Below are positions 4,035-14,789 of a DNA stretch of 64,000 nucleotides, piece by piece (position 1 is the stretch's first letter; each line of letters starts with the position of its first letter). A program made the position numbers and the translations under genes. The notes beneath the pieces were generated by a model that was not told the origin of the DNA, searched no databases, and saw only the letters and a program-made list of their open reading frames with translations. The stretch is from Bifidobacterium eulemuris (lineage in GTDB: Bacteria > Actinomycetota > Actinomycetes > Actinomycetales > Bifidobacteriaceae), in assembly GCF_014898155.1 (NCBI RefSeq), contig NZ_CP062938.1, positions 2,294,001 to 2,358,000 on the forward strand, in the 5' to 3' direction.

Positions 4035-4423
4035 GTAAATACCTCCATATTATCGGCGTCTACAACATGATAGCCCATAACAATAACTCTGATTAAATCC
4101 GCAGGTATATTTCAGCTAATTCGAACTATTAATATCTGGATAAAGTAGTGGTTATTCTCCTGTCTGAAACCCGATCTCAAAGTCGTCTGGTTGATGCTGT
4201 ATCTGTCCGGTTATCTGACACAGAATATGAAAACCCGAGTCGTATCATCATCGGTCACACGGAACGTATGTTCCGTTGAATCCAGCCGCCTAGGAGCAGT
4301 TGGGACAAGGCTGGATTCGAATACACGGAAAGGTATGATAAGCCCCTCGGTCCCAGAGTCCGATGGGGAGCTGCAATTGGGCGATCTATTTACTCTCACT
4401 CTCACTAGTAATTCGCTACAGAC
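4035..4423. other. Non-coding stretch with two small inverted repeats
   Basis: No gene is supported here. ACGGAAC/GTTCCGT (4259-4265 with 4270-4276) and GAATCCAGCC/GGCTGGATTC (4278-4287 with 4309-4318) form adjacent hairpins. The small open frame across them has no ribosome site and runs into the guanine deaminase fragment that follows. Confidence 0.5.
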
Positions 4424-4536
4424 TGTCAATCTTGACTTGTCCAGCGGCATCATGTCGGTGCGCCGCAATTTGGATGCGGGATTGAAGGTGTGTGGCGAGT
4501 GATGTGGTCGACAGTCATGAGCCGGACGATAATCGG
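4424..4536 (+). pseudogene. Internal fragment of a second guanine deaminase gene
   Basis: These bases match 5871-5986 of the intact guanine deaminase gene closely (for example CAATCTTGACTTGTCCAGCG is identical). The fragment has point changes and a 2-base loss in a GTGTGTG run, so it cannot be translated as the enzyme. No start or upstream part of the gene is present. It pairs with the 3' fragment at 9924-10081 as remains of one older copy. Confidence 0.85.
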
Positions 4537-4758: not shown

Positions 4759-5014
4759 CGTCGGATCCATGGGTATTTCGTCTGATGTTTTGCAGATGTT
4801 CCCCGACTGGGTGCAGTATTTCCTGTCCTCCGGCACCGCCGTGGGCGCGCTGACCGCGGTTGTGCTGAATCTGTTGCTTCCCAAGCCCAAGCAGCAGGAA
4901 GAGACCGAGGAATCGGATATGGTTGCTTCTGTTGGTGCGAAGACGTTTTCGCCGGCGTCATCGGGCGTCGCATCTATGCCCGTGGCCGGCGTCGTCGCTA
5001 AGGAGGCCCTGTGA
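4759..5014 (+). pseudogene. C-terminal remnant of an NCS2-type nucleobase permease
   Basis: About 85 codons remain. The segment FPDWVQYFLSSGTAVGALTA followed by VVLNLLLPK is typical of the last membrane helix and tail of xanthine/uracil permeases (NCS2 family, normally about 430-480 residues). Everything upstream is missing and replaced by the 55-bp repeat. The stop TGA (5012-5014) overlaps the ATG of the guanine deaminase, so the two genes were once coupled: uptake of a purine base and then its deamination. The short piece may still be translated from ATG 4769 but cannot transport. Confidence 0.75.
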
Positions 5015-6300
5015 TGTTCGCTTACAAAGGCGATGTTCTGCACACGCCCACTCCGGATCGCTTCGAAGTGTTCGAAGACGGATACGTGGTGGTCGATGAC
5101 GAGGGCACGGTCATCGATGTCGTCAGCTCCCTGCCGAAAGCGTATGCCGATGCCGATCTCACAATCGTGGACCGCAGCGGCTGCCTGATCATTCCCGGTT
5201 TCAACGACCTGCACGTCCACGCACCCCAATACCCGCTTGCCGGTCTTGGCTTTGACTATGAGCTGCTTGACTGGCTGGAGAAATACACGTTCCCCGCCGA
5301 GTCCAAGTATGCGGACCTGGCTATGGCCGACCATTGGTATCGCAGGTTCATCACCGCGATGTGGAGTGCGGGCACGTTGCGATTCAGCGCTTTCGCCACG
5401 CTCCATAACGAATCCACGCTGCGCCTTATGGAACTGTGCCAGCAGTCCGGATTGAAACCCGTGGTCGGTAAGGTGAACATGGACCGTAACGCGCCCGACT
5501 ACCTTGTCGAAAGCACGCAGGCGAGTCTCGCCGGCACTGAGGAGTTGATCAGAAAGTCACGCGAGACCACGCCGGACGTGGGCTTCATCGTCACGCCGCG
5601 TTTCGTCCCCTCCACTACGGAGGCGCTGATGGAAGGGCTGGGGGAGCTTGTGGAGCGGTATCGTCTGCCGGTGCAGTCCCATTTGGATGAGAGCCGCGAC
5701 GAGATCGCGTGGGTGCGTGAGCTCCATCCGGATGTGCCGTCATATGCCGAGGTGTACGAACGGTATGGTCTGATGCCGCGGAACCGCACGATTATGGCGC
5801 ATTGCGTGTGGTTGACCGATCGTGAGCGTGACGTGCTTCGGGAGCGTGAGGTGTGGCTTACGCATTGCGCGCAGTCCAATCTTGACTTGTCCAGCGGGAT
5901 CATGCCGGTGCGCCGCAACCTGGACGCGGGGTTGAAGGTGTGTGTGGCGAGCGATGTGGCCGGCAGTCATGAGCCGGATATGAATCGGCATATCGTCATG
6001 TCGGTCGAAGCGTCCAAAGCGAAGACGTTCGAGGCCGGTTGTGAGCGGGACAGACCGTTGCGTTTGTCTGAAGCGTTCCATATGGCCACCAAGGTGCCGG
6101 GCTCGTTCTTCGGCAAGGTCGGATCGTTTGAGCCGGGGTATGAGTTCGACGCGTTGGTGGTGCGCGAGGATGAGAGCCCGTTGGACCTCTCGCCCCAGGA
6201 GCGTTTGGAACGTTTCATCTACACCGGTGACGATCGCGACATCAAGGAGCGCTACGTCAGTGGCCGCCTGATTCCCCAACCGTTTGAAGATGAGAGGTAG
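5014..6300 (+). CDS. guaD: Guanine deaminase (amidohydrolase superfamily)
   Basis: It hydrolyses guanine to xanthine and ammonia in purine salvage, in the cytoplasm, with one zinc ion. The 428-residue length fits the family. PGFNDLHVHAPQYP holds the HxH metal pair and the family's PQ motif. DWLEKYTFPAE, QSHLDES, AHCVW and the late ASDVAGSH carry the remaining metal and base-binding residues, so the enzyme looks intact. ATG 5014 is 9 bases after AGGAGG and overlaps the permease stop. GTG 5011 is an alternative start. Two decayed pieces of a paralogous gene lie at 4424 and 9924. Confidence 0.93.
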   Translation: MFAYKGDVLHTPTPDRFEVFEDGYVVVDDEGTVIDVVSSLPKAYADADLTIVDRSGCLIIPGFNDLHVHAPQYPLAGLGFDYELLDWLEKYTFPAESKYADLAMADHWYRRFITAMWSAGTLRFSAFATLHNESTLRLMELCQQSGLKPVVGKVNMDRNAPDYLVESTQASLAGTEELIRKSRETTPDVGFIVTPRFVPSTTEALMEGLGELVERYRLPVQSHLDESRDEIAWVRELHPDVPSYAEVYERYGLMPRNRTIMAHCVWLTDRERDVLREREVWLTHCAQSNLDLSSGIMPVRRNLDAGLKVCVASDVAGSHEPDMNRHIVMSVEASKAKTFEAGCERDRPLRLSEAFHMATKVPGSFFGKVGSFEPGYEFDALVVREDESPLDLSPQERLERFIYTGDDRDIKERYVSGRLIPQPFEDER

Positions 6301-6421: not shown

Positions 6422-7612
6422 GTGGTTGCTCTCGATGCTCTGAATCCTTTCATGCCTGGAGCTGGTATGCGCCCTCCCGAACTGGTGGGGCGTGATGCCG
6501 ACATTGAAAGCATCGGTCGAATAATCGCCCGCACGAAACTGAAGTTGATGAACCAAGGGGTTATTTTCAGTGGACTTCGGGGCATGGGGAAAACGGTGCT
6601 GTTGCTTTCTCTGCAGGATCTCGCCGCGAGACAGGGAATGGTCACAGCTCGAATGGAAGCGACTGGGAACGCGGAAACCGATTACGACGAGCTTTTTAAC
6701 GAAATCGCTCTTGCCGCGGTCAACGTGAGATCGATGGCGCTGCGCGAGAAGCTGTCGGAGGTGATGTCGAGGATTGATTCGGTAGAGTTCAGCTTCCTCG
6801 GTATCGGTGCCAACGTGAGGCTCTCGGATGAAGAGAGGATTCGTACGAATCCCTTCCGGTTGGAGGCCATCGTCAGGAGACTCTCGGAAGAACTGGCCAA
6901 GGAGAACTCGGGACTGTTCCTATTTATCGACGAACTGCAGGAGATGGCTAGCAAGCCCCTTGGTGCCCTCGTTGCGTTACAGCATAAAATGGGGCAGGAC
7001 GGGCTTCCTTTCTACATCATCGGTGCTGGCCTTCCCAACTTGCCGGGAACATTGACGAAGTCTCGCTCATACGCGGAACGGCTGTTCTCCTACAAGCGTA
7101 TCGGGCAGCTGTCGGATGAGGACACGGCGGATGGCTTCCAAAAACCCGCGCAGAGGATGGGTCGCCCGTTCGATGACGAGGCAATCAGCAGACTCGTCGA
7201 GATTTCACATGGCTACCCGTATTTCATTCAGGCGTATGGAAGGGCCGCATGGGATGCGTCCGTTTCTAATCCCACAGGTTTGCAAGCTGTGCTTGAGGGC
7301 GAGCCAATCGCCAGGGCGGAACTTGATGAAGGGCTCTATACATCGAGATGGCAACGAGCTAAGGAGTCTGGTAGGAGATATCTGGCTGCGATGGCGAGAA
7401 TCAGTGAGGATGATCCGTGTGATTCGGCGCGGGTGGCCGAAGCGATGGGCAAGAAACCCAAAGAGGTATCCATGGTGCGTGAATCGTTGATACAACTTGG
7501 GCTGATATATCAGCCGGAACATGGGAAAGTCGCATATACCATTCCTGGTATGGGTGAATACATCCTCCGTGCGGTCCCAGCAACTCAACAGACCTATGAC
7601 GGTCGCTGGTGA
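6422..7612 (+). CDS. AAA+ ATP-binding protein (ORC/Cdc6-like fold)
   Basis: The 396-residue protein has Walker A GLRGMGKT at residues 51-58, Walker B LFLFIDELQE, and a sensor-like IIGAGLPNLP. Its C-terminal third looks like a winged helix (RVAEAMGKKPKEVSMVRESL, then YTIPGMGEYI). This fits the AAA_16/ORC-like P-loop proteins found as single genes in actinobacterial accessory regions. Their function is not settled; DNA-binding ATPase is the safest call. GTG 6422 is chosen because GGAGGTGGGG sits just upstream. The phased TAGATT repeat lies in its promoter region. There is no operon partner; the next gene is about 450 bases away. Confidence 0.8.
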   Translation: MVALDALNPFMPGAGMRPPELVGRDADIESIGRIIARTKLKLMNQGVIFSGLRGMGKTVLLLSLQDLAARQGMVTARMEATGNAETDYDELFNEIALAAVNVRSMALREKLSEVMSRIDSVEFSFLGIGANVRLSDEERIRTNPFRLEAIVRRLSEELAKENSGLFLFIDELQEMASKPLGALVALQHKMGQDGLPFYIIGAGLPNLPGTLTKSRSYAERLFSYKRIGQLSDEDTADGFQKPAQRMGRPFDDEAISRLVEISHGYPYFIQAYGRAAWDASVSNPTGLQAVLEGEPIARAELDEGLYTSRWQRAKESGRRYLAAMARISEDDPCDSARVAEAMGKKPKEVSMVRESLIQLGLIYQPEHGKVAYTIPGMGEYILRAVPATQQTYDGRW

Positions 7613-8066: not shown

Positions 8067-8606
8067 ATGCAAGAGGTACAGTGCAGGTGCGCTAGAGGTG
8101 TGCCTGTTCATTATGACTGGTTTGGTGAAGACATTTCTCGCGAGGAAGGCGAGACGCTTCCGCGCGCGATCGCACGTTGGTTCGCTGAGAAAGCCGCGAA
8201 CGAGGAGCTTCGCTGGGGGAATCTTTCGTCAACACGTTTTGAAAAATGCAAGTATCAGACTGAGGCCTATGTGGAAGAGGCGATTGAACGAGTGTCGGCG
8301 GGTAAAGCGCGTCCTGGTACGGAAGTCGTGGCGGTCGCTCGCGCACGGCAACAGGGGTGTCCGCTTTTTGAACTTCGTTGGCATCGTGATGTGCGGCAGT
8401 TGAATGGGGTGAAGAAAGAGCAGATTCGCCAATACGAGTCGGAGCCAGAAGAATTATCCGACTGTGTGTTCGGGCTTCATATGCATTTGAAAGACGTGCG
8501 AAGCGGCGATGATGCGGCGATTAATGCCGCTCAGAATGAGCATATTGATCGTGCGATTGCTATACATCAGCGACGGAGTCTTGACGGATGGGCTCGCCAG
8601 ACTTGA
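8067..8606 (+). CDS. Candidate toxin of a toxin-antitoxin-chaperone module (HigB/RelE-like)
   Basis: ATG 8067 follows a GGGGAGGG site and gives 179 residues. The segment PLFELRWHRDVRQ, followed by CVFGLHMHLKDVR and a C-terminal helix with regularly spaced Ala and Arg, resembles the core strands and final helix of HigB/RelE (Gp49-like) mRNA interferases, which usually carry xELR and a LHxFxKK stretch. The N-terminal 100 residues are extra compared with those about 110-130 residue toxins. It is followed after 48 bases by an Xre-type antitoxin and then a SecB-like gene, the order seen in the M. tuberculosis HigB-HigA-Rv1957 system. The toxin assignment rests largely on that context. The start could be longer (ATG-less extension to 8019) or frameshifted. 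Confidence 0.5.
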   Translation: MQEVQCRCARGVPVHYDWFGEDISREEGETLPRAIARWFAEKAANEELRWGNLSSTRFEKCKYQTEAYVEEAIERVSAGKARPGTEVVAVARARQQGCPLFELRWHRDVRQLNGVKKEQIRQYESEPEELSDCVFGLHMHLKDVRSGDDAAINAAQNEHIDRAIAIHQRRSLDGWARQT

Positions 8607-8608
8607 TT

Positions 8609-8629
8609 TATATAACTATTAGTTATATA
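8609..8629. promoter_or_regulatory. Operator-like palindrome between toxin and antitoxin genes
   Basis: TATATAACT (8609-8617) and AGTTATATA (8621-8629) are perfect complements around ATT. It lies just past the toxin stop and about 25 bases before the antitoxin start. The Xre antitoxin may bind here to control its own expression; an internal promoter is possible in this AT-rich gap. Confidence 0.55.
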
Positions 8630-8654
8630 TTGTCTAGACTGTTTCTAAAGGTGG

Positions 8655-9206
8655 GTGATTGACGTGGTCGACAGCAGCCTATATGACTATCGAGAGCTTG
8701 CCTATGACTTGTATAAAGCAGGCAATGATCTTTTGGAAGAACTCGTCGCCATGAGGAAACGTCGTGGCATGACGCAAGCGCAGCTTGCGGAGGAAATGAA
8801 CGTTTCGCAGGCATATGTTTCACAGATTGAGAACGGGAAAACCAAACTTGTTTCACTGCTTACCGATTATGCTTTGGAAGTCGGGGCGCGTCTTGAATAC
8901 AAGATTGAACCTGCTGAGAACAAGCCGGAGGGGCTTCGTCAGTACTCTCGCAAAGAATTCGTCATTCCGGGCACCGCTGTAATTGAGTCAGACACCTGGT
9001 CCATGGGGCCGGCCTGGGGGACTGTGCGCTGGGAGACGAAAGCGCCGGGATCCATAGTGGGAATTCTCTCATCTGGTGATGGGGATAACAGCGGTGTCTC
9101 TATGGCTGTTGTCACAGGCGTTGGGGATGCGGATGGCGAGAAACTTGATGACGGTGATTTCTCCATTGATTCTTGTCATCCTGCGCAAGAAACGGCTGGT
9201 CAATGA
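8655..9206 (+). CDS. Xre-family HTH antitoxin with long C-terminal extension
   Basis: Residues about 31-75 form a Cro/CI-type helix-turn-helix (MTQAQLAEEMNVSQAYVSQI then ENGKTKL). The remaining roughly 100 residues are not part of the HTH and are rich in Gly, Asp and Ser near the end. In TAC systems the HigA antitoxin carries a C-terminal chaperone-addiction segment that keeps it unstable until a SecB-like chaperone binds; this tail could have that role, which is inference. GTG 8655 follows AAAGG closely, and GTG 8664 is an alternative start. Its stop overlaps the SecB-like start as ATGA, so the two are translationally coupled. Confidence 0.8.
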   Translation: MIDVVDSSLYDYRELAYDLYKAGNDLLEELVAMRKRRGMTQAQLAEEMNVSQAYVSQIENGKTKLVSLLTDYALEVGARLEYKIEPAENKPEGLRQYSRKEFVIPGTAVIESDTWSMGPAWGTVRWETKAPGSIVGILSSGDGDNSGVSMAVVTGVGDADGEKLDDGDFSIDSCHPAQETAGQ

Positions 9207-9610
9207 TGCAAGTGCAACGAATCGTCCTTATGCGAGAAACCAGTGATAGAGATATTGCGGTAGAACTATCTGATAAAACGTTATCTCCGCGTATCTCTAT
9301 TGCTTTTGAGCTTGATGCCGTTGCCGACAAGCCGTGGCCTTTTGAATTCGTGATGACCTCGGAAGTGCAGACGTCGTCTCAGACGGATTCGTCGAATGAC
9401 GATTTGGTTCCTTTTTTCACATCAGAACATAGATATGCTGTTGCATTTGACCGGAATGATGCAGCTGAAATCAATGCGTCGGAAGCGGCTGTGGTGATAT
9501 GGCCATACATCAGGCATGATTTGCTTGAGAGGTTACGGAAGCATGAAATTCCGCCGCTGCAGATTCCTTTACGATTTGTCTCCAGTGATTCGGAACTTGA
9601 ATCAGCATGA
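9203..9610 (+). CDS. SecB-like chaperone of a TAC module
   Basis: This is a 135-residue acidic protein starting at ATG 9203 (ATGA overlap with the antitoxin stop; ATG 9206 is adjacent). The C-terminal half reads AAVVIWPYIRHDLLERLRKH followed by EIPPLQIPLRFV. This mirrors the SecB signature in which FPYxRE is followed by a helix and then PPLxLxPVNF. The N-terminal part has the alternating strand pattern of SecB. General SecB export chaperones are rare in Gram-positive actinobacteria, and SecB-like proteins there are known from TAC systems (Rv1957). With a preceding Xre gene, a TAC chaperone is the best reading. A divergent unrelated protein remains possible. Confidence 0.6.
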   Translation: MMQVQRIVLMRETSDRDIAVELSDKTLSPRISIAFELDAVADKPWPFEFVMTSEVQTSSQTDSSNDDLVPFFTSEHRYAVAFDRNDAAEINASEAAVVIWPYIRHDLLERLRKHEIPPLQIPLRFVSSDSELESA

Positions 9611-9923: not shown

Positions 9924-10081
9924 TTGGGCTCGACGCGCTGGTGGTGTAGGAAGATGAGAACCCGTTGGCTCTCTTTCCAGAAGCGCTTGGAACGCTTCCT
10001 CTGCACTGGTGATGATCACGACGGCAGGAGCGTTGCATCATCGGCCGCTTGATCTCTCAACTGTTTAAGGACGAGCGATAG
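9924..10081 (+). pseudogene. 3' fragment of a second guanine deaminase gene
   Basis: This stretch aligns with 6143-6300, the last 50 codons of the intact guanine deaminase, including the stop codon position. It carries an in-frame TAG (within GTGTAGGAA, where the intact gene has GTGCGCGAG) and many changes. Together with 4424-4536 it brackets the accessory patch. Confidence 0.85.
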
Positions 10082-10148: not shown

Positions 10149-11099
10149 TTAACGCAACGATTCCAGCCTGCGCAAGCCATAACGAAGCGCGCGAAGTCTG
10201 AAGGCGGGGTTCTTGGCATGCAACAGGCAACTCTTCCATGTGCTGTCGCAGGCGGTTTTCATGGTCATGAATTCTTCGGTGAATTCGTTGCGTACGGTTG
10301 CGTCGGCGGCCAGATACTTCTGCATCATACCTGTATATGAAATGAATTCGAATACGTTAAGAGGATGCGCAAAGCTTTCGTCTTTGGTCCATTCGCGTAC
10401 ATATTGAACCTGCTTGAGTATTTCGAGATCTCTTTCCCTAAAGCCTTGCCCATGTTGGGTCAATGAATCTCGCCGAATGCGGTAATAGTAGATCGGTTTG
10501 TCGGTGAAGGCCACGCCTCGTTCCGCGTTGTATAAAGCGCGATAGCTGAATACGCCGTCTTCTCCATATGACATGTCTTCTGGGTTCCAAACGTCTTCGA
10601 GCACTTCCCTGCGAAATAATTTGCCCCATGGATACCCGTACAACGTGTGGAGATTCAGGTGTTCTGTCACCGCTTGGTTATGCGAGTATCGCCCTTTGAA
10701 GAAGCGAAAACGTTTTTGCCGGATATCCCCATCGCGATCGGTCCAATACCCGCAATATGCAATATCAGTTTGTGAATCCGTGAGGAGATTCAGGCTGTCT
10801 TGCAATGCGCAAGGCGCTAAGTAGTCGTCGCTGTCCGCCAGCATAAGATAATCGCCTTGGGCTTCTTGTAGCCCACGGTTGCGCGCTTTGGCCACACCCA
10901 TGTTGGTGGATTGTTCTAAGACGCGAATTCTTTGATCTTCTCGGGCATAGTGCTGGCAAATCTCTACGGATGCGTCAGTGGGTTTATCTGTAACTAGAAG
11001 TAATTCAAAATCAGAATATGTCTGGTTGGTTATACTCGATATGAACTGATCAAGATAAGGAGCGACATTATAGACAGGCGCAACAATGGAAATCGTCAT
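10149..11099 (-). CDS. GT2 family glycosyltransferase (EPS unit A, last gene)
   Basis: The 316-residue protein has a GT-A fold: SIVAPVYNVAPYLDQFISSI at the N-terminus, the DxD-like LADSDDYL, and GEDGVFSYRALY (the ED motif of the acceptor side). A basic C-terminal helix region follows. It should transfer one sugar to the lipid-linked EPS repeat unit on the cytoplasmic face. It starts 2 bases after the stop of the small upstream gene, so it is the last member of the unit A operon. The donor and acceptor sugars cannot be told. Confidence 0.88.
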   Translation of the reverse strand: MTISIVAPVYNVAPYLDQFISSITNQTYSDFELLLVTDKPTDASVEICQHYAREDQRIRVLEQSTNMGVAKARNRGLQEAQGDYLMLADSDDYLAPCALQDSLNLLTDSQTDIAYCGYWTDRDGDIRQKRFRFFKGRYSHNQAVTEHLNLHTLYGYPWGKLFRREVLEDVWNPEDMSYGEDGVFSYRALYNAERGVAFTDKPIYYYRIRRDSLTQHGQGFRERDLEILKQVQYVREWTKDESFAHPLNVFEFISYTGMMQKYLAADATVRNEFTEEFMTMKTACDSTWKSCLLHAKNPAFRLRALRYGLRRLESLR

Positions 11100-11101
11100 T
11101 A

Positions 11102-11338
11102 TTACCTTAGTTCGTATGATTTGATTACAGTTGAATACTTTCTAAGAAGATATTTATTGACCAGTTTGTCGTGTTGGTATTCGCAGAATAAAGAAAATGC
11201 TGTCGGGCGGCGATGCGACAAAAAAACCAATGTATTGAATATAGGTATTCTAATTCCCCATTTCTTTACTCGAGAAATTTTAAAGTTATTCTTTAGTGCA
11301 GAAAAAAATTTGCGACAATAGTATATGAACCTATTCAA
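11102..11338 (-). CDS. Small basic protein of EPS unit A, unknown
   Basis: A 78-codon frame with a TTG start at 11338 fits exactly between its neighbours: it overlaps the preceding stop by 8 bases and ends 2 bases before the next ATG. AAGGAG-like sequence precedes it. The protein is very basic, with one weakly hydrophobic stretch (IPIFNTLVFL). I recognise no family. It could be the remnant of a longer glycosyltransferase or a real small EPS protein. Confidence 0.45.
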   Translation of the reverse strand: MNRFIYYCRKFFSALKNNFKISRVKKWGIRIPIFNTLVFLSHRRPTAFSLFCEYQHDKLVNKYLLRKYSTVIKSYELR

Positions 11339-12059
11339 TTCCTTGCTCCTTTAAAAGATGGCCATATAGTGTAAGATTTCCATGGATGGCTTCTGGAAAA
11401 TCCTGCTTATAAGTCAATTTAAAACATCCGTCATTTTTCTCGAGCTTTTCTCGAGTGTCTGAGCTAAAAATTGTTCCCAGTCTTCGTTCGAAATAATCTA
11501 CAGGGAGCGTCATCCTGGGACATTTATTAAATGCCTCGTGAATGGATTTGTTGGTGTTGTATCCTAGATACATGATGTTATCGGTGATCAGATATGCAAT
11601 CAGATCATCCTCATGCATCCAGTAATCAATCCAAAAATCAGTCAGTAATCCAAAGAGCGGGAAGTTGCGCTGCCCTCCGATGAATGACATAAGCCACCGA
11701 TTGGTTATACGTTTTGAATCTGGTGCTTCTCTCGCGAAAGTGAATAGCTCTTTCTCAAACCAATCTTGTTGCAAAGGTTTGTTGAAGTACATGGATGCGT
11801 CACTCCATATGCCACCATGGTTACGAAGTAGCGAAAACCTCAGAAGGTCAGAATAATGCGCTGCGGGGATAATGCCTTTGCGGTATTTATCGACAATCTT
11901 CCCGGGCCAATCGATATAGTCGTCCAAGTTTTTGTCAGTTATGGAAATAACCTGTGCCGAACACGCATCTGCTGCGTGCAGCAGACTTGAATGGCACATT
12001 CTTATTATTTTTGGAGCTTTGTCAAAGCCTTGCCACCAGGCTGTATAAACGCTGTTCAT
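11331..12059 (-). CDS. Capsular polysaccharide synthesis glycosyltransferase (Caps_synth/GT32-like)
   Basis: The 242-residue protein begins with AWWQGFDKAPKIIRMC and carries HYSDLLRFSLLRNHGGIWSD followed by AS. Both blocks are typical of the Caps_synth family, a branch of GT32-like enzymes whose DxD-like site sits after the GG(I/L)W motif. It lacks the N-terminal about 70 residues found in its two relatives in this window (33399-34415 and 50086-51027). ATG 12059 shares a base with the flippase stop (TAATG). It probably adds a side or terminal sugar to the unit A repeat. Confidence 0.85.
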   Translation of the reverse strand: MNSVYTAWWQGFDKAPKIIRMCHSSLLHAADACSAQVISITDKNLDDYIDWPGKIVDKYRKGIIPAAHYSDLLRFSLLRNHGGIWSDASMYFNKPLQQDWFEKELFTFAREAPDSKRITNRWLMSFIGGQRNFPLFGLLTDFWIDYWMHEDDLIAYLITDNIMYLGYNTNKSIHEAFNKCPRMTLPVDYFERRLGTIFSSDTREKLEKNDGCFKLTYKQDFPEAIHGNLTLYGHLLKEQGIE

Positions 12060-13507
12060 TATCGACTCCTCATTGTTTTTAGCGTGCCGGCAACCACCCG
12101 TAATAGTAGATACCGTTTGGTGACGGCTTCATAAATTGCTGCGGTAGAAACGAACGTCAAAATTCCTATACAAATTTCCGCCAGTACTTGAAATCCGGCA
12201 TCGATTGAAAATACGGAAGCAAATAATCTGACATCCAACAACATAAACGCGCCGCAACATAGGTATGGCAATGTTCCCAACAGCGGGCTGATGACTGGTA
12301 CTTCACCACGAATAAAAAGCGTCTGAGCGATGCTCATCACGGCCTCGGCGCAGATGGTGGAGGTGACCGCGCCCAAGGCTCCGAATCTTGGCACTAAGAG
12401 AATGCAGAATATCGATAGAGAACCGACGCCGATTAGGAAAGCCGCCATGTACTGGTTATCCTTTCCAGTGGGCAGTAGGTACTGGTTGCGGATTACTTCG
12501 CCCACGGTCCAGAATGGAATACTGATGGCGAAGCCGGTCATCAATGGCGCACAGAAAGCGAAGTCTTGCCCCCAGAACCATGGCGCGAATTCCGGCGCGA
12601 CGGCAGAGATGCCGAACGCGACGGCGTAGGACATAGCCATACACGCTGTGAATGATTCGATAAATTTGCTCCGCACTTGCTGGTGCTTGCCTTCTGCATG
12701 CATTCTGGCGATATTGGGGCACATCACGGTCCCAAGTGAGGCAATGATGGTCTTAGGCGTTGTCGCTTTGGACGATAATTCCATATATCCGACATCAGAT
12801 TTGCTGAACAACGAGCCGACCATGAGTTTGCCGATATTGTTGTAAACGCCTTCCGCCACCACGGGTACCATCAATTTAAACATGCCTCGATAATGCCTCA
12901 GACAGTTAGAAACCGATGGCTTGACAAAGGAAACATAGTGTCGTCCATACCATAAAGCAATAGATCGCGCAGTTAGGCTGGAAAAACACATGATGACGAT
13001 ATATAACAACAAGTCCGACGGCTGTTGGACAAGTATCACGATCAATATGAAAGTAACGATTTTTACCGTTGTGTCGCGGGCTACTAGTGGCCGCATATTC
13101 TCCATGCCGACGAAGAGAAAAGCGTTATCAATCATGTTGCCCACAATCGATAGCCCTTGTATCATGAAAATCCACGGATGGTTTCCCCATAGTAAAGGCG
13201 CAATCATATAATATGCCGTTATCACAATGGCGGCGTTCACCACATGTGTAGCGAAGATGTCCGAGAATGTCTGATTTAACAAATCTTGACTGGTTTTCGC
13301 CTTGGCGATCTCACGCATCCCATACCGATACAAACCCAGCTCGGCGACCATAACGAACAGGGAGACAATGGCATAGCTGTACGAATATGCGCCTAGGCCT
13401 TCCGCACCTAGCCGTCGAGACAGCAACGGCGATGTTATGAGAGGCAGCAGCAGCTCTAGAAGCTTATATGCTGATGCATAAAGAAAATTTTTCTTAATAC
13501 TTGCCAA
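12059..13507 (-). CDS. wzx: Wzx-type oligosaccharide flippase (unit A)
   Basis: This 482-residue, almost fully hydrophobic protein has 12-14 predicted membrane segments. The N-terminus SAYKLLELLLPLITSPLLSR followed by RLGAEGLGAYSYS is the standard start of polysaccharide-biosynthesis flippases of the MATE/MVF superfamily. It should move the finished undecaprenyl-linked repeat across the membrane. It overlaps the polymerase gene by 14 bases, which implies coupled expression. One of three Wzx proteins in the locus. Confidence 0.92.
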   Translation of the reverse strand: MASIKKNFLYASAYKLLELLLPLITSPLLSRRLGAEGLGAYSYSYAIVSLFVMVAELGLYRYGMREIAKAKTSQDLLNQTFSDIFATHVVNAAIVITAYYMIAPLLWGNHPWIFMIQGLSIVGNMIDNAFLFVGMENMRPLVARDTTVKIVTFILIVILVQQPSDLLLYIVIMCFSSLTARSIALWYGRHYVSFVKPSVSNCLRHYRGMFKLMVPVVAEGVYNNIGKLMVGSLFSKSDVGYMELSSKATTPKTIIASLGTVMCPNIARMHAEGKHQQVRSKFIESFTACMAMSYAVAFGISAVAPEFAPWFWGQDFAFCAPLMTGFAISIPFWTVGEVIRNQYLLPTGKDNQYMAAFLIGVGSLSIFCILLVPRFGALGAVTSTICAEAVMSIAQTLFIRGEVPVISPLLGTLPYLCCGAFMLLDVRLFASVFSIDAGFQVLAEICIGILTFVSTAAIYEAVTKRYLLLRVVAGTLKTMRSR

Positions 13508-14789
13508 TATTCCTGGCTCCTGCAGTAAGGGTAGGGCTGTAATCTCGTTGTCTTAGAGCTTGCTCGGAGGGGTATGAAGAAAGCAGCAAACAGTTCATCC
13601 ACATCCATAGAGGCGCAATATCCAAATCCGGCACTGCGATGAACATGCATGCGAAAGCGCACAATACGGCAATTCGAAGAGCGAAATTAATTATTCCTAT
13701 TTTTGCTATACTTCTTCGCATTAATAATGGAAGACATACTGCAGTTATTAGTAAAACAATAGCTGTCATACCAATGATTCCTTGCTCTGACAATACTGTC
13801 AAATAAAAAGAGCTGGCACGTGATTTTTTATATCCAACTCCAAAAAAAGGAGATGATTCAAACATGCGTAGCGCAGCCGCATTCCACCCATTTCTCGCAG
13901 CAGCAGATCCAGAACTGCTTTTATTGAAGATCACTTCATTAAGGGACTCAGTGAAGAAACTGAACATGAGAAGCGCAGTTACGAGACCAATAGCGATTAG
14001 ATAAGCTTTGCGCTTTATTCCAGGAGCCGCGATTACGAATAGAACTCCACCGATTGCTAAAGCTCCATAAGCTGTCGATGAGAAAGTCAGAAGAATTTCT
14101 ATCAAAATAACTGAAATTAACAGTTTTTTATATCGGAAAGACTTTTGAATACAGAGGAGGAAATAGAATGCGCCGACGATGAAACAGGCGTAATACGAGG
14201 GCTCCTGATATGTTGACAGAATTCTGAAGTAGCCTGTCCGATAGTAATAGGTCACCTCGCCGTGGTCATTATAAAACAACTCATTAACTAGAGTCAGATG
14301 GGGGAGAAGCCCTGACGTGATTGCTAACTGCAATACTCCGACCGCAAGAAGGAATACTGTGATATAGAGAATCATCTTGAAAACAAATTGGTTGTCCACA
14401 AGACTGGACACTGAGCTCATGGCCCACGCGCATGCTATATAGACGCAAAGCTGCACGATACGCAGTTTGTAGGATAACGGTTGGGCTGCTACGGAAGCTT
14501 CGTTGGCGTACAGGGAAAGAAAAACAGCAAGCAGTACCACTATGGTGCCGATACGGACAGTTCTCATTGCACGTCTTGGATACCACCTGCCAAGCCGCAG
14601 GATGAGAACTCGTATCACGAACAGAGCTGAGGTGATGATCTGCGGGCCGATACCGGTTCCAGCGAATGTAATGACGTTATTGCACTGAAAAACCGATCCC
14701 AGTATCGTCATAACTATCAGGGGACGTATGTCTTTCAAGCAGAAAGCAAAGATGACAATCGCAAGCCATATCATGCCGAATATTGTCAT
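13494..14789 (-). CDS. wzy: Wzy-type EPS polymerase (unit A)
   Basis: The 431-residue protein has about ten membrane segments and a large loop. GYFRILSTYQEPSYYACFIV and, later, a loop with AAARNGWNAAALRMFESSPF followed by FGVGYKKS fit the O-antigen ligase/polymerase family, where such loop arginines and the GxGxxS-like motif recur. It should join repeat units on the outer face of the membrane. It follows the GT4 gene by 4 bases and overlaps wzx. Confidence 0.85.
   Translation of the reverse strand: MTIFGMIWLAIVIFAFCLKDIRPLIVMTILGSVFQCNNVITFAGTGIGPQIITSALFVIRVLILRLGRWYPRRAMRTVRIGTIVVLLAVFLSLYANEASVAAQPLSYKLRIVQLCVYIACAWAMSSVSSLVDNQFVFKMILYITVFLLAVGVLQLAITSGLLPHLTLVNELFYNDHGEVTYYYRTGYFRILSTYQEPSYYACFIVGAFYFLLCIQKSFRYKKLLISVILIEILLTFSSTAYGALAIGGVLFVIAAPGIKRKAYLIAIGLVTALLMFSFFTESLNEVIFNKSSSGSAAARNGWNAAALRMFESSPFFGVGYKKSRASSFYLTVLSEQGIIGMTAIVLLITAVCLPLLMRRSIAKIGIINFALRIAVLCAFACMFIAVPDLDIAPLWMWMNCLLLSSYPSEQALRQRDYSPTLTAGARNIGKY

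Follow-up and report, generated by a model that had tools for sequence, protein, structure and literature searches.

Three linked plus strand genes in a 64,000-nucleotide stretch of Bifidobacterium eulemuris DNA (the window; the host genome is a single contig of 2,920,839 bases) very probably form a toxin-antitoxin-chaperone (TAC) module consisting of a HigB-type toxin (T), an Xre antitoxin with a chaperone-held tail (A) and a SecB-like chaperone (C), with a putative promoter in the T-A gap that A would repress. This reading rests on the gene order in relatives, the modelled folds of T and C, catalytic-type residues, differences among antitoxin tails and a conserved palindrome. The TAC arrangement, HigB toxins and the addiction of antitoxins to chaperones are all known already. 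New here are two divergent families, those of T and C, the way they are spread in the Bifidobacteriaceae, the finding that some loci carry the chaperone and others do not, and a likely operator between T and A. The module is altered to the point that two of its three genes escape standard family models; T and C have no significant match in Pfam, NCBIfam, PADLOC or PHROGs. Among the papers retrieved on Bifidobacterium with SecB/toxin-antitoxin or HigB/tripartite systems, no title or abstract opening describes such a module.

T (8067-8606) encodes the HigB/RelE-type toxin of 179 amino acids, A (8664-9206) the Xre/Cro-type antitoxin of 180 amino acids from the GTG at 8664, or 183 from an alternative GTG at 8655, and C (9203-9610) the SecB-like chaperone of 135 amino acids, all on the plus strand; A and C overlap in the ATGA at 9203-9206. 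The open reading frames (ORFs) confirm both the toxin-antitoxin-SecB-like gene order and the ATGA join of the second and third genes given by a first-pass annotation of this DNA. The assignment of A is based on its Cro/C1-type helix-turn-helix (HTH), also noticed in that annotation and matched by Pfam HTH_3 at 2.5e-11, and on its place between T and C in relatives.

Gene order among relatives

Relatives were sought in 112 genomes of the genus and 189 of the family. In the genus set the first profiles (E<=0.01) found C in 9 genomes and T in 8, and refined profiles (E<=0.1) found C in 12 and T in 11; across the family set T was found at E<=0.01 in 16 genomes. The refined C profile gave 10 strong loci at E below 1e-8, in 9 of the 112 genomes, and four weaker places. 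An HTH gene lies just upstream of C in all 10 strong loci, seven of which were also found independently by the T profile. Every one of the 19 T loci in total was read as an ORF list, and 13 of them have T, A and C: those of the window, G072, G083, G101, G034 (two), G004, G093, G110, G562, G550, G533 and G558, with T broken in G083 and G110. In the last six of these genomes other than the window's (G093, G110, G562, G550, G533, G558) C was recognised from ORF lists and alignments rather than by profile search. Since the order T-A-C recurs in 13 family loci and the separate T and C profiles co-locate in seven, the linkage goes beyond chance, in support of the TAC organisation proposed at first pass. 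At the other six T loci, T and A have no C beside them (G025, G084, G116, two in G539, and G559), and C is therefore not always needed in this T-A family. Conversely, the C profile led to three loci where A and C stand without a T gene (G016, G003 and G059); A is broken in G016 and G003.

The four weaker C-profile matches (E 7e-4 to 0.085) were taken as chance. They lie in G012 (27 residues), G006, G028 and at a further site in G059; of these, G012 was the one inspected, and its ORF list shows neither a T nor an A gene next to the match. The second G539 toxin was considered as a broken gene and this was rejected, the reported internal stop being the frame's own end. Neither C nor T was found in viral contigs, and a T-subfamily alignment found nothing in GTDB contigs, although the genome searches do recover such loci. 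From our reading of the ORFs, an integrase-like gene precedes the TACs of G550 and G533, and one DUF4411/PIN-like and one ImmA/IrrE-like gene adjoin the G016 A-C pair (L017 3101-5736).

Folds of the toxin and the chaperone

The AlphaFold2 (AF2) model of T has a predicted local distance difference test score (pLDDT) of 90.4, and its best VIA-align rows are of the HigB/RelE type, with residues 1-116 of the 6af4 chain aligned to model residues 13-174. The first gene had been annotated as a HigB/RelE-type toxin with a 100-residue N-terminal extension; the fold and the conservation of catalytic-type residues sustain the former, whereas the extension is rejected. In the model the HigB fold starts near residue 13, and the extra length of T is divided among lengthened helices, a lengthened loop and the C-terminus. 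The catalytic residues of HigB-TAC are reported to include E66, R68, R77 and K95 (PMC9098466). In a motif alignment E102, R104, R121 and K142 of T occupy these places, and in our own alignment E102, R121 and K142 are kept in 22/22 sequences and R or K at 104 in 20/22. T is read as a HigB-type toxin and is most likely a ribosome-dependent mRNA endonuclease.

Window T has no Pfam Gp49 or ParE_toxin match; within a clade related to T, Gp49 is matched in 2/3 (best 6.3e-5) and ParE_toxin in 1/3 (0.053). T profiles retrieved only chance rows from PDB sequences, and hhalign found no link between them and three actinobacterial TAC toxins. The hhalign match of toxin alignments A8 and A15 (E 9.5e-24) was discarded as independent evidence because the G004 toxin sits in both; the A6 comparisons used in its place gave E 1.9e-4 (probability 47.6) with A15 and E 4.2e-5 (probability 69.5) with A20. 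ParE toxins, which belong to the same superfamily as RelE and HigB, act on DNA gyrase. It is unlikely that T likewise has the RelE/HigB fold with another target, e.g. DNA gyrase, or with no activity, the module being silent or acting otherwise: HigB-TAC Q98 and K99 have no match in T (S145/S146 region, own alignment) and Foldseek alone gave nothing significant for the T model (lowest E 0.18, with 0.40 for a HigB entry), but the residues kept in all or nearly all 22 sequences follow the ribosome-dependent HigB pattern. Toxins of a sister clade (L022 2234-2752; L067 3457-3954; L068 2639-3187; L093 1745-2224) carry shared Cys/His residues at their two ends, in the patterns HKC/HCC...C and WGH...C..C, that may form a metal site; this end pattern is not seen in window T.

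The C model (AF2, pLDDT 79.6, predicted template modelling score 0.75) matches SecB in both Foldseek and VIA-align, Rv1957 being the nearest SecB fold. The four-stranded antiparallel sheet and helix, whose absence from 9203-9610 had been set beforehand as grounds for rejecting a SecB-like protein, are present, as is the WPYIR...PPLQIP stretch that had first suggested one. C is classed as SecB-like by the fold of its model and not as a member of PF02556, which the window C does not match and which has no match over its cut-off in any of the 112 genus genomes. TAC or AC chaperones outside PF02556 have been reported, in a paper whose searched text does not mention Bifidobacterium (PMC4257090). 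C is remote in sequence: a search with the single protein among 5.8 billion proteins returned at E<=0.001 only the window's own protein, and the match of the C profile to Rv1957 varies with the alignment (E 0.011 for A4, 0.31 for A18, none for A12 and A14). In hhalign, C alignments align weakly to five actinobacterial SecB-like proteins (A14, E 0.032, probability 1.6; A4, 0.0062, 6.1; A18 to A16, 7.8e-4, 24.9), against E 0.82 for a control of A14 with toxins. Another reading makes C a SecB-type chaperone of general or export function that plays no dedicated part in the T-A pair. It would agree with the fold of C and with the reported ability of overexpressed TAC chaperones to replace E. coli SecB (PMC5105189), but appears highly improbable given that C is rare in the genus, that its strong loci all have the HTH gene just upstream, and that PF02556 nowhere exceeds its cut-off there.

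The antitoxin tail and the T-A gap

The HTH of A is followed by a tail of 97 amino acids (8913-9203, plus strand), in keeping with the long-tailed Xre antitoxin of the first-pass annotation. In HigA1 a C-terminal stretch with W108, R110 and Y114 is reported to be bound by the chaperone, and this chaperone-addiction stretch is missing from chaperone-independent antitoxins (PMC6377645, PMC5105189). Sequences after the HTH were compared by seven measures between 15 C-linked antitoxins (those of the 13 TACs, G059 and G016) and the six without C, G003 being left out because its A frame is broken; the p values ignore kinship. C-linked tails have a median of 4 tryptophan, phenylalanine and tyrosine residues against 1 (p=0.0064), a peak 11-residue hydropathy of 0.94 against -0.04 (p=0.0064) and 1 tryptophan against 0 (p=0.043). 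Within the window clade, a grouping from the alignment, a Trp stretch recurs in C-linked tails (window TWSMG, G059 EWSNG, G072 TWSDG, G550 SWSDN, G016 EWEKN); G562 and G533 are C-linked yet have none. The aromatic stretch TWSMGPAWGTVRW (8994-9032, plus strand), taken from the tail alignment, is the best candidate for a chaperone-binding site. The earlier proposal that the tail is a chaperone-addiction segment has some comparative support, with mixed results: aromatic content and peak hydropathy go with C, length does not, and the C-free G539a and G559 are exceptions. Two rules were dropped, namely tail length as the divider, a guess from three C-free loci that failed with six, and an absence of aromatics from C-free tails, which failed on the same six.

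The T-A gap contains the perfect palindrome TATATAACTATTAGTTATATA (8609-8629, no strand), likely the operator of A, which is spanned by a promoter-like TTGATT-17-TATATT (8603-8631, plus strand) found in front of A by a consensus scan. The promoter-like site is weak alone, since such sites occur at chance frequency: the region has 2, and its shuffled versions average 3.0. Perfect palindromes with arms of at least 8 occur in 5 of 10 T-A gaps (gaps of at least 36 bp), against a mean of 0.08 and a maximum of 2 palindrome-bearing gaps in 1000 dinucleotide shuffles; none occurs in the gaps of G034a, G101, G072 and G562. The 150-bp stretches preceding T at 16 loci contain no arms of at least 8, and three of them have arms of 7. 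A motif, ATATWAC-N5-GTWATAT, was composed after viewing the window, G025, G562, G059 and G072. Allowing up to 2 mismatches, it is matched within 120 bp upstream of A at 8 of 19 loci, including G533, G539a and G559, which were unseen at its design (the latter two are near-identical); 11 of its 13 matches in 171,086 bases fall within the upstream-of-A stretches. G550, of the same clade, has another palindrome and no motif, and other clades are without the ATATWAC motif, the gaps of G083, G084 and G116 carrying other AT-rich palindromes. In G059, where the A-C pair has no toxin gene, the motif is retained within a perfect inverted repeat that is longer, with 18-base arms (L019 3985-4064).

In the mechanism that we propose, the N-terminal part of A would bind DNA and, by analogy with known TACs, C would hold A by its tail and A would hold T. 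The long aromatic-rich tail would, as the comparison of relatives suggests, make A unstable unless held by C, and if C disappears or is taken up with other clients, A would be degraded and T would act. A probably represses the putative gap promoter through the palindrome, and from the position of the candidate operator A and C could be made without T. A more elaborate form of the TAC reading, which we put forward tentatively, is split control, in which A represses an internal promoter making A and C only, and the module would sense chaperone load with a threshold and damp its own activation by negative feedback. When the chaperone is titrated, as a phage protein is reported to do in CmdTAC, A would fall and the cell would respond by making more A and C first, not more toxin, and the chaperone-free relatives would show addiction gained or lost in nature. 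The module may serve in stress response, in phage defence as does CmdTAC, or in maintenance of a variable region.

Several results weigh against a chaperone-dependent module of this kind: the six chaperone-free loci among 19; tails that do not differ significantly in length (53 C-linked against 37.5, p=0.16), charged fraction (p=0.31) or mean hydropathy (p=0.15); the 3 tail aromatics in each of G539a and G559, near-identical and both without C; the absence of a palindrome from the T-A gaps of G034a and G101; and, from the searches described above, the non-significant Foldseek result for T and the inconstant match of C to Rv1957. The chaperone-free loci and overlapping tail lengths would suit a conventional HigBA-type pair with a self-sufficient antitoxin, to which the SecB-like protein is a linked helper of little effect. 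Such a pair is nevertheless quite unlikely: C is kept in 13 of the 19 loci, the ATGA overlap of A and C is found in several, A and C are still paired in the three loci that lost T, and tails differ in aromatic content.

Neighbouring genes and known systems

An AAA_16 ATPase gene (4.1e-12) lies just upstream of the operon at window 6422-7612; from ORF reading, a similar gene adjoins the G093 TAC (L068 3-1145), and near the G016 locus (L017 5885-6430) lies a fragment whose C-terminus resembles that of the window ATPase. Window segments 4191-4502 and 9930-10055 resemble pieces of the amidohydrolase gene at 5011-6300 and flank the region on both sides, which hints at a past duplication or insertion. 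Beside the operon, at 10149-14789, we read glycosyltransferase and flippase-like ORFs as a polysaccharide cluster, and the G034a, G101 and G059 loci are also flanked by glycosyltransferase or tyrosine-kinase-like genes.

By these results the Bifidobacteriaceae have TACs whose chaperones and toxins escape family models, which points to an undercount of TACs. The related loci with and without the chaperone form a natural series on how an antitoxin gains or loses chaperone dependence, and the T-A operator, if real, would be a circuit predicting that antitoxin and chaperone can rise without toxin.

HigB1-HigA1-Rv1957 of M. tuberculosis shares with the present module the toxin, Xre antitoxin, SecB-like chaperone order, the HigB fold, a SecB fold of which Rv1957 is the nearest, a Trp in the antitoxin tail and an AT-rich palindromic operator; however, the sequences are too distant for family models, and chaperone-free relatives exist here. 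HigA1 is reported to bind ATATAGG(N)6CCTATAT (PMC8669151), and its operator sits at promoter P2, upstream of the operon (PMC3968373, PMC8669151), whereas the candidate operator here lies between toxin and antitoxin. The actinobacterial HigBA-SecB TACs L075, L078 and L079 also have the T-A-C order; the L078 and L079 toxins are over the Gp49 cut-off, and PF02556 is over cut-off in L075 and just under in L078 and L079. Their toxins are unlinked to T by hhalign and their SecB only weakly linked to C. CmdTAC, an anti-phage TAC of E. coli, likewise combines toxin, antitoxin and SecB-like chaperone, and its antitoxin is reported to be degraded without the chaperone (PMC11618068); however, CmdT is an mRNA ADP-ribosyltransferase, and T has a HigB/RelE fold. 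In another actinobacterial genome (L074 558-1881) an ADP-ribosyltransferase-looking gene with no Pfam match is followed by a short gene and a SecB-like gene, a locus that could be CmdTAC-like. An arrangement like that proposed here, a toxin-first pair with antitoxin-only promoters, is found in mqsRA. The toxin and antitoxin of mqsRA belong to families other than those of T and A. Its promoters driving the antitoxin alone are described as constitutive (PMC6918082), whereas here the putative promoter is overlapped by the candidate operator.
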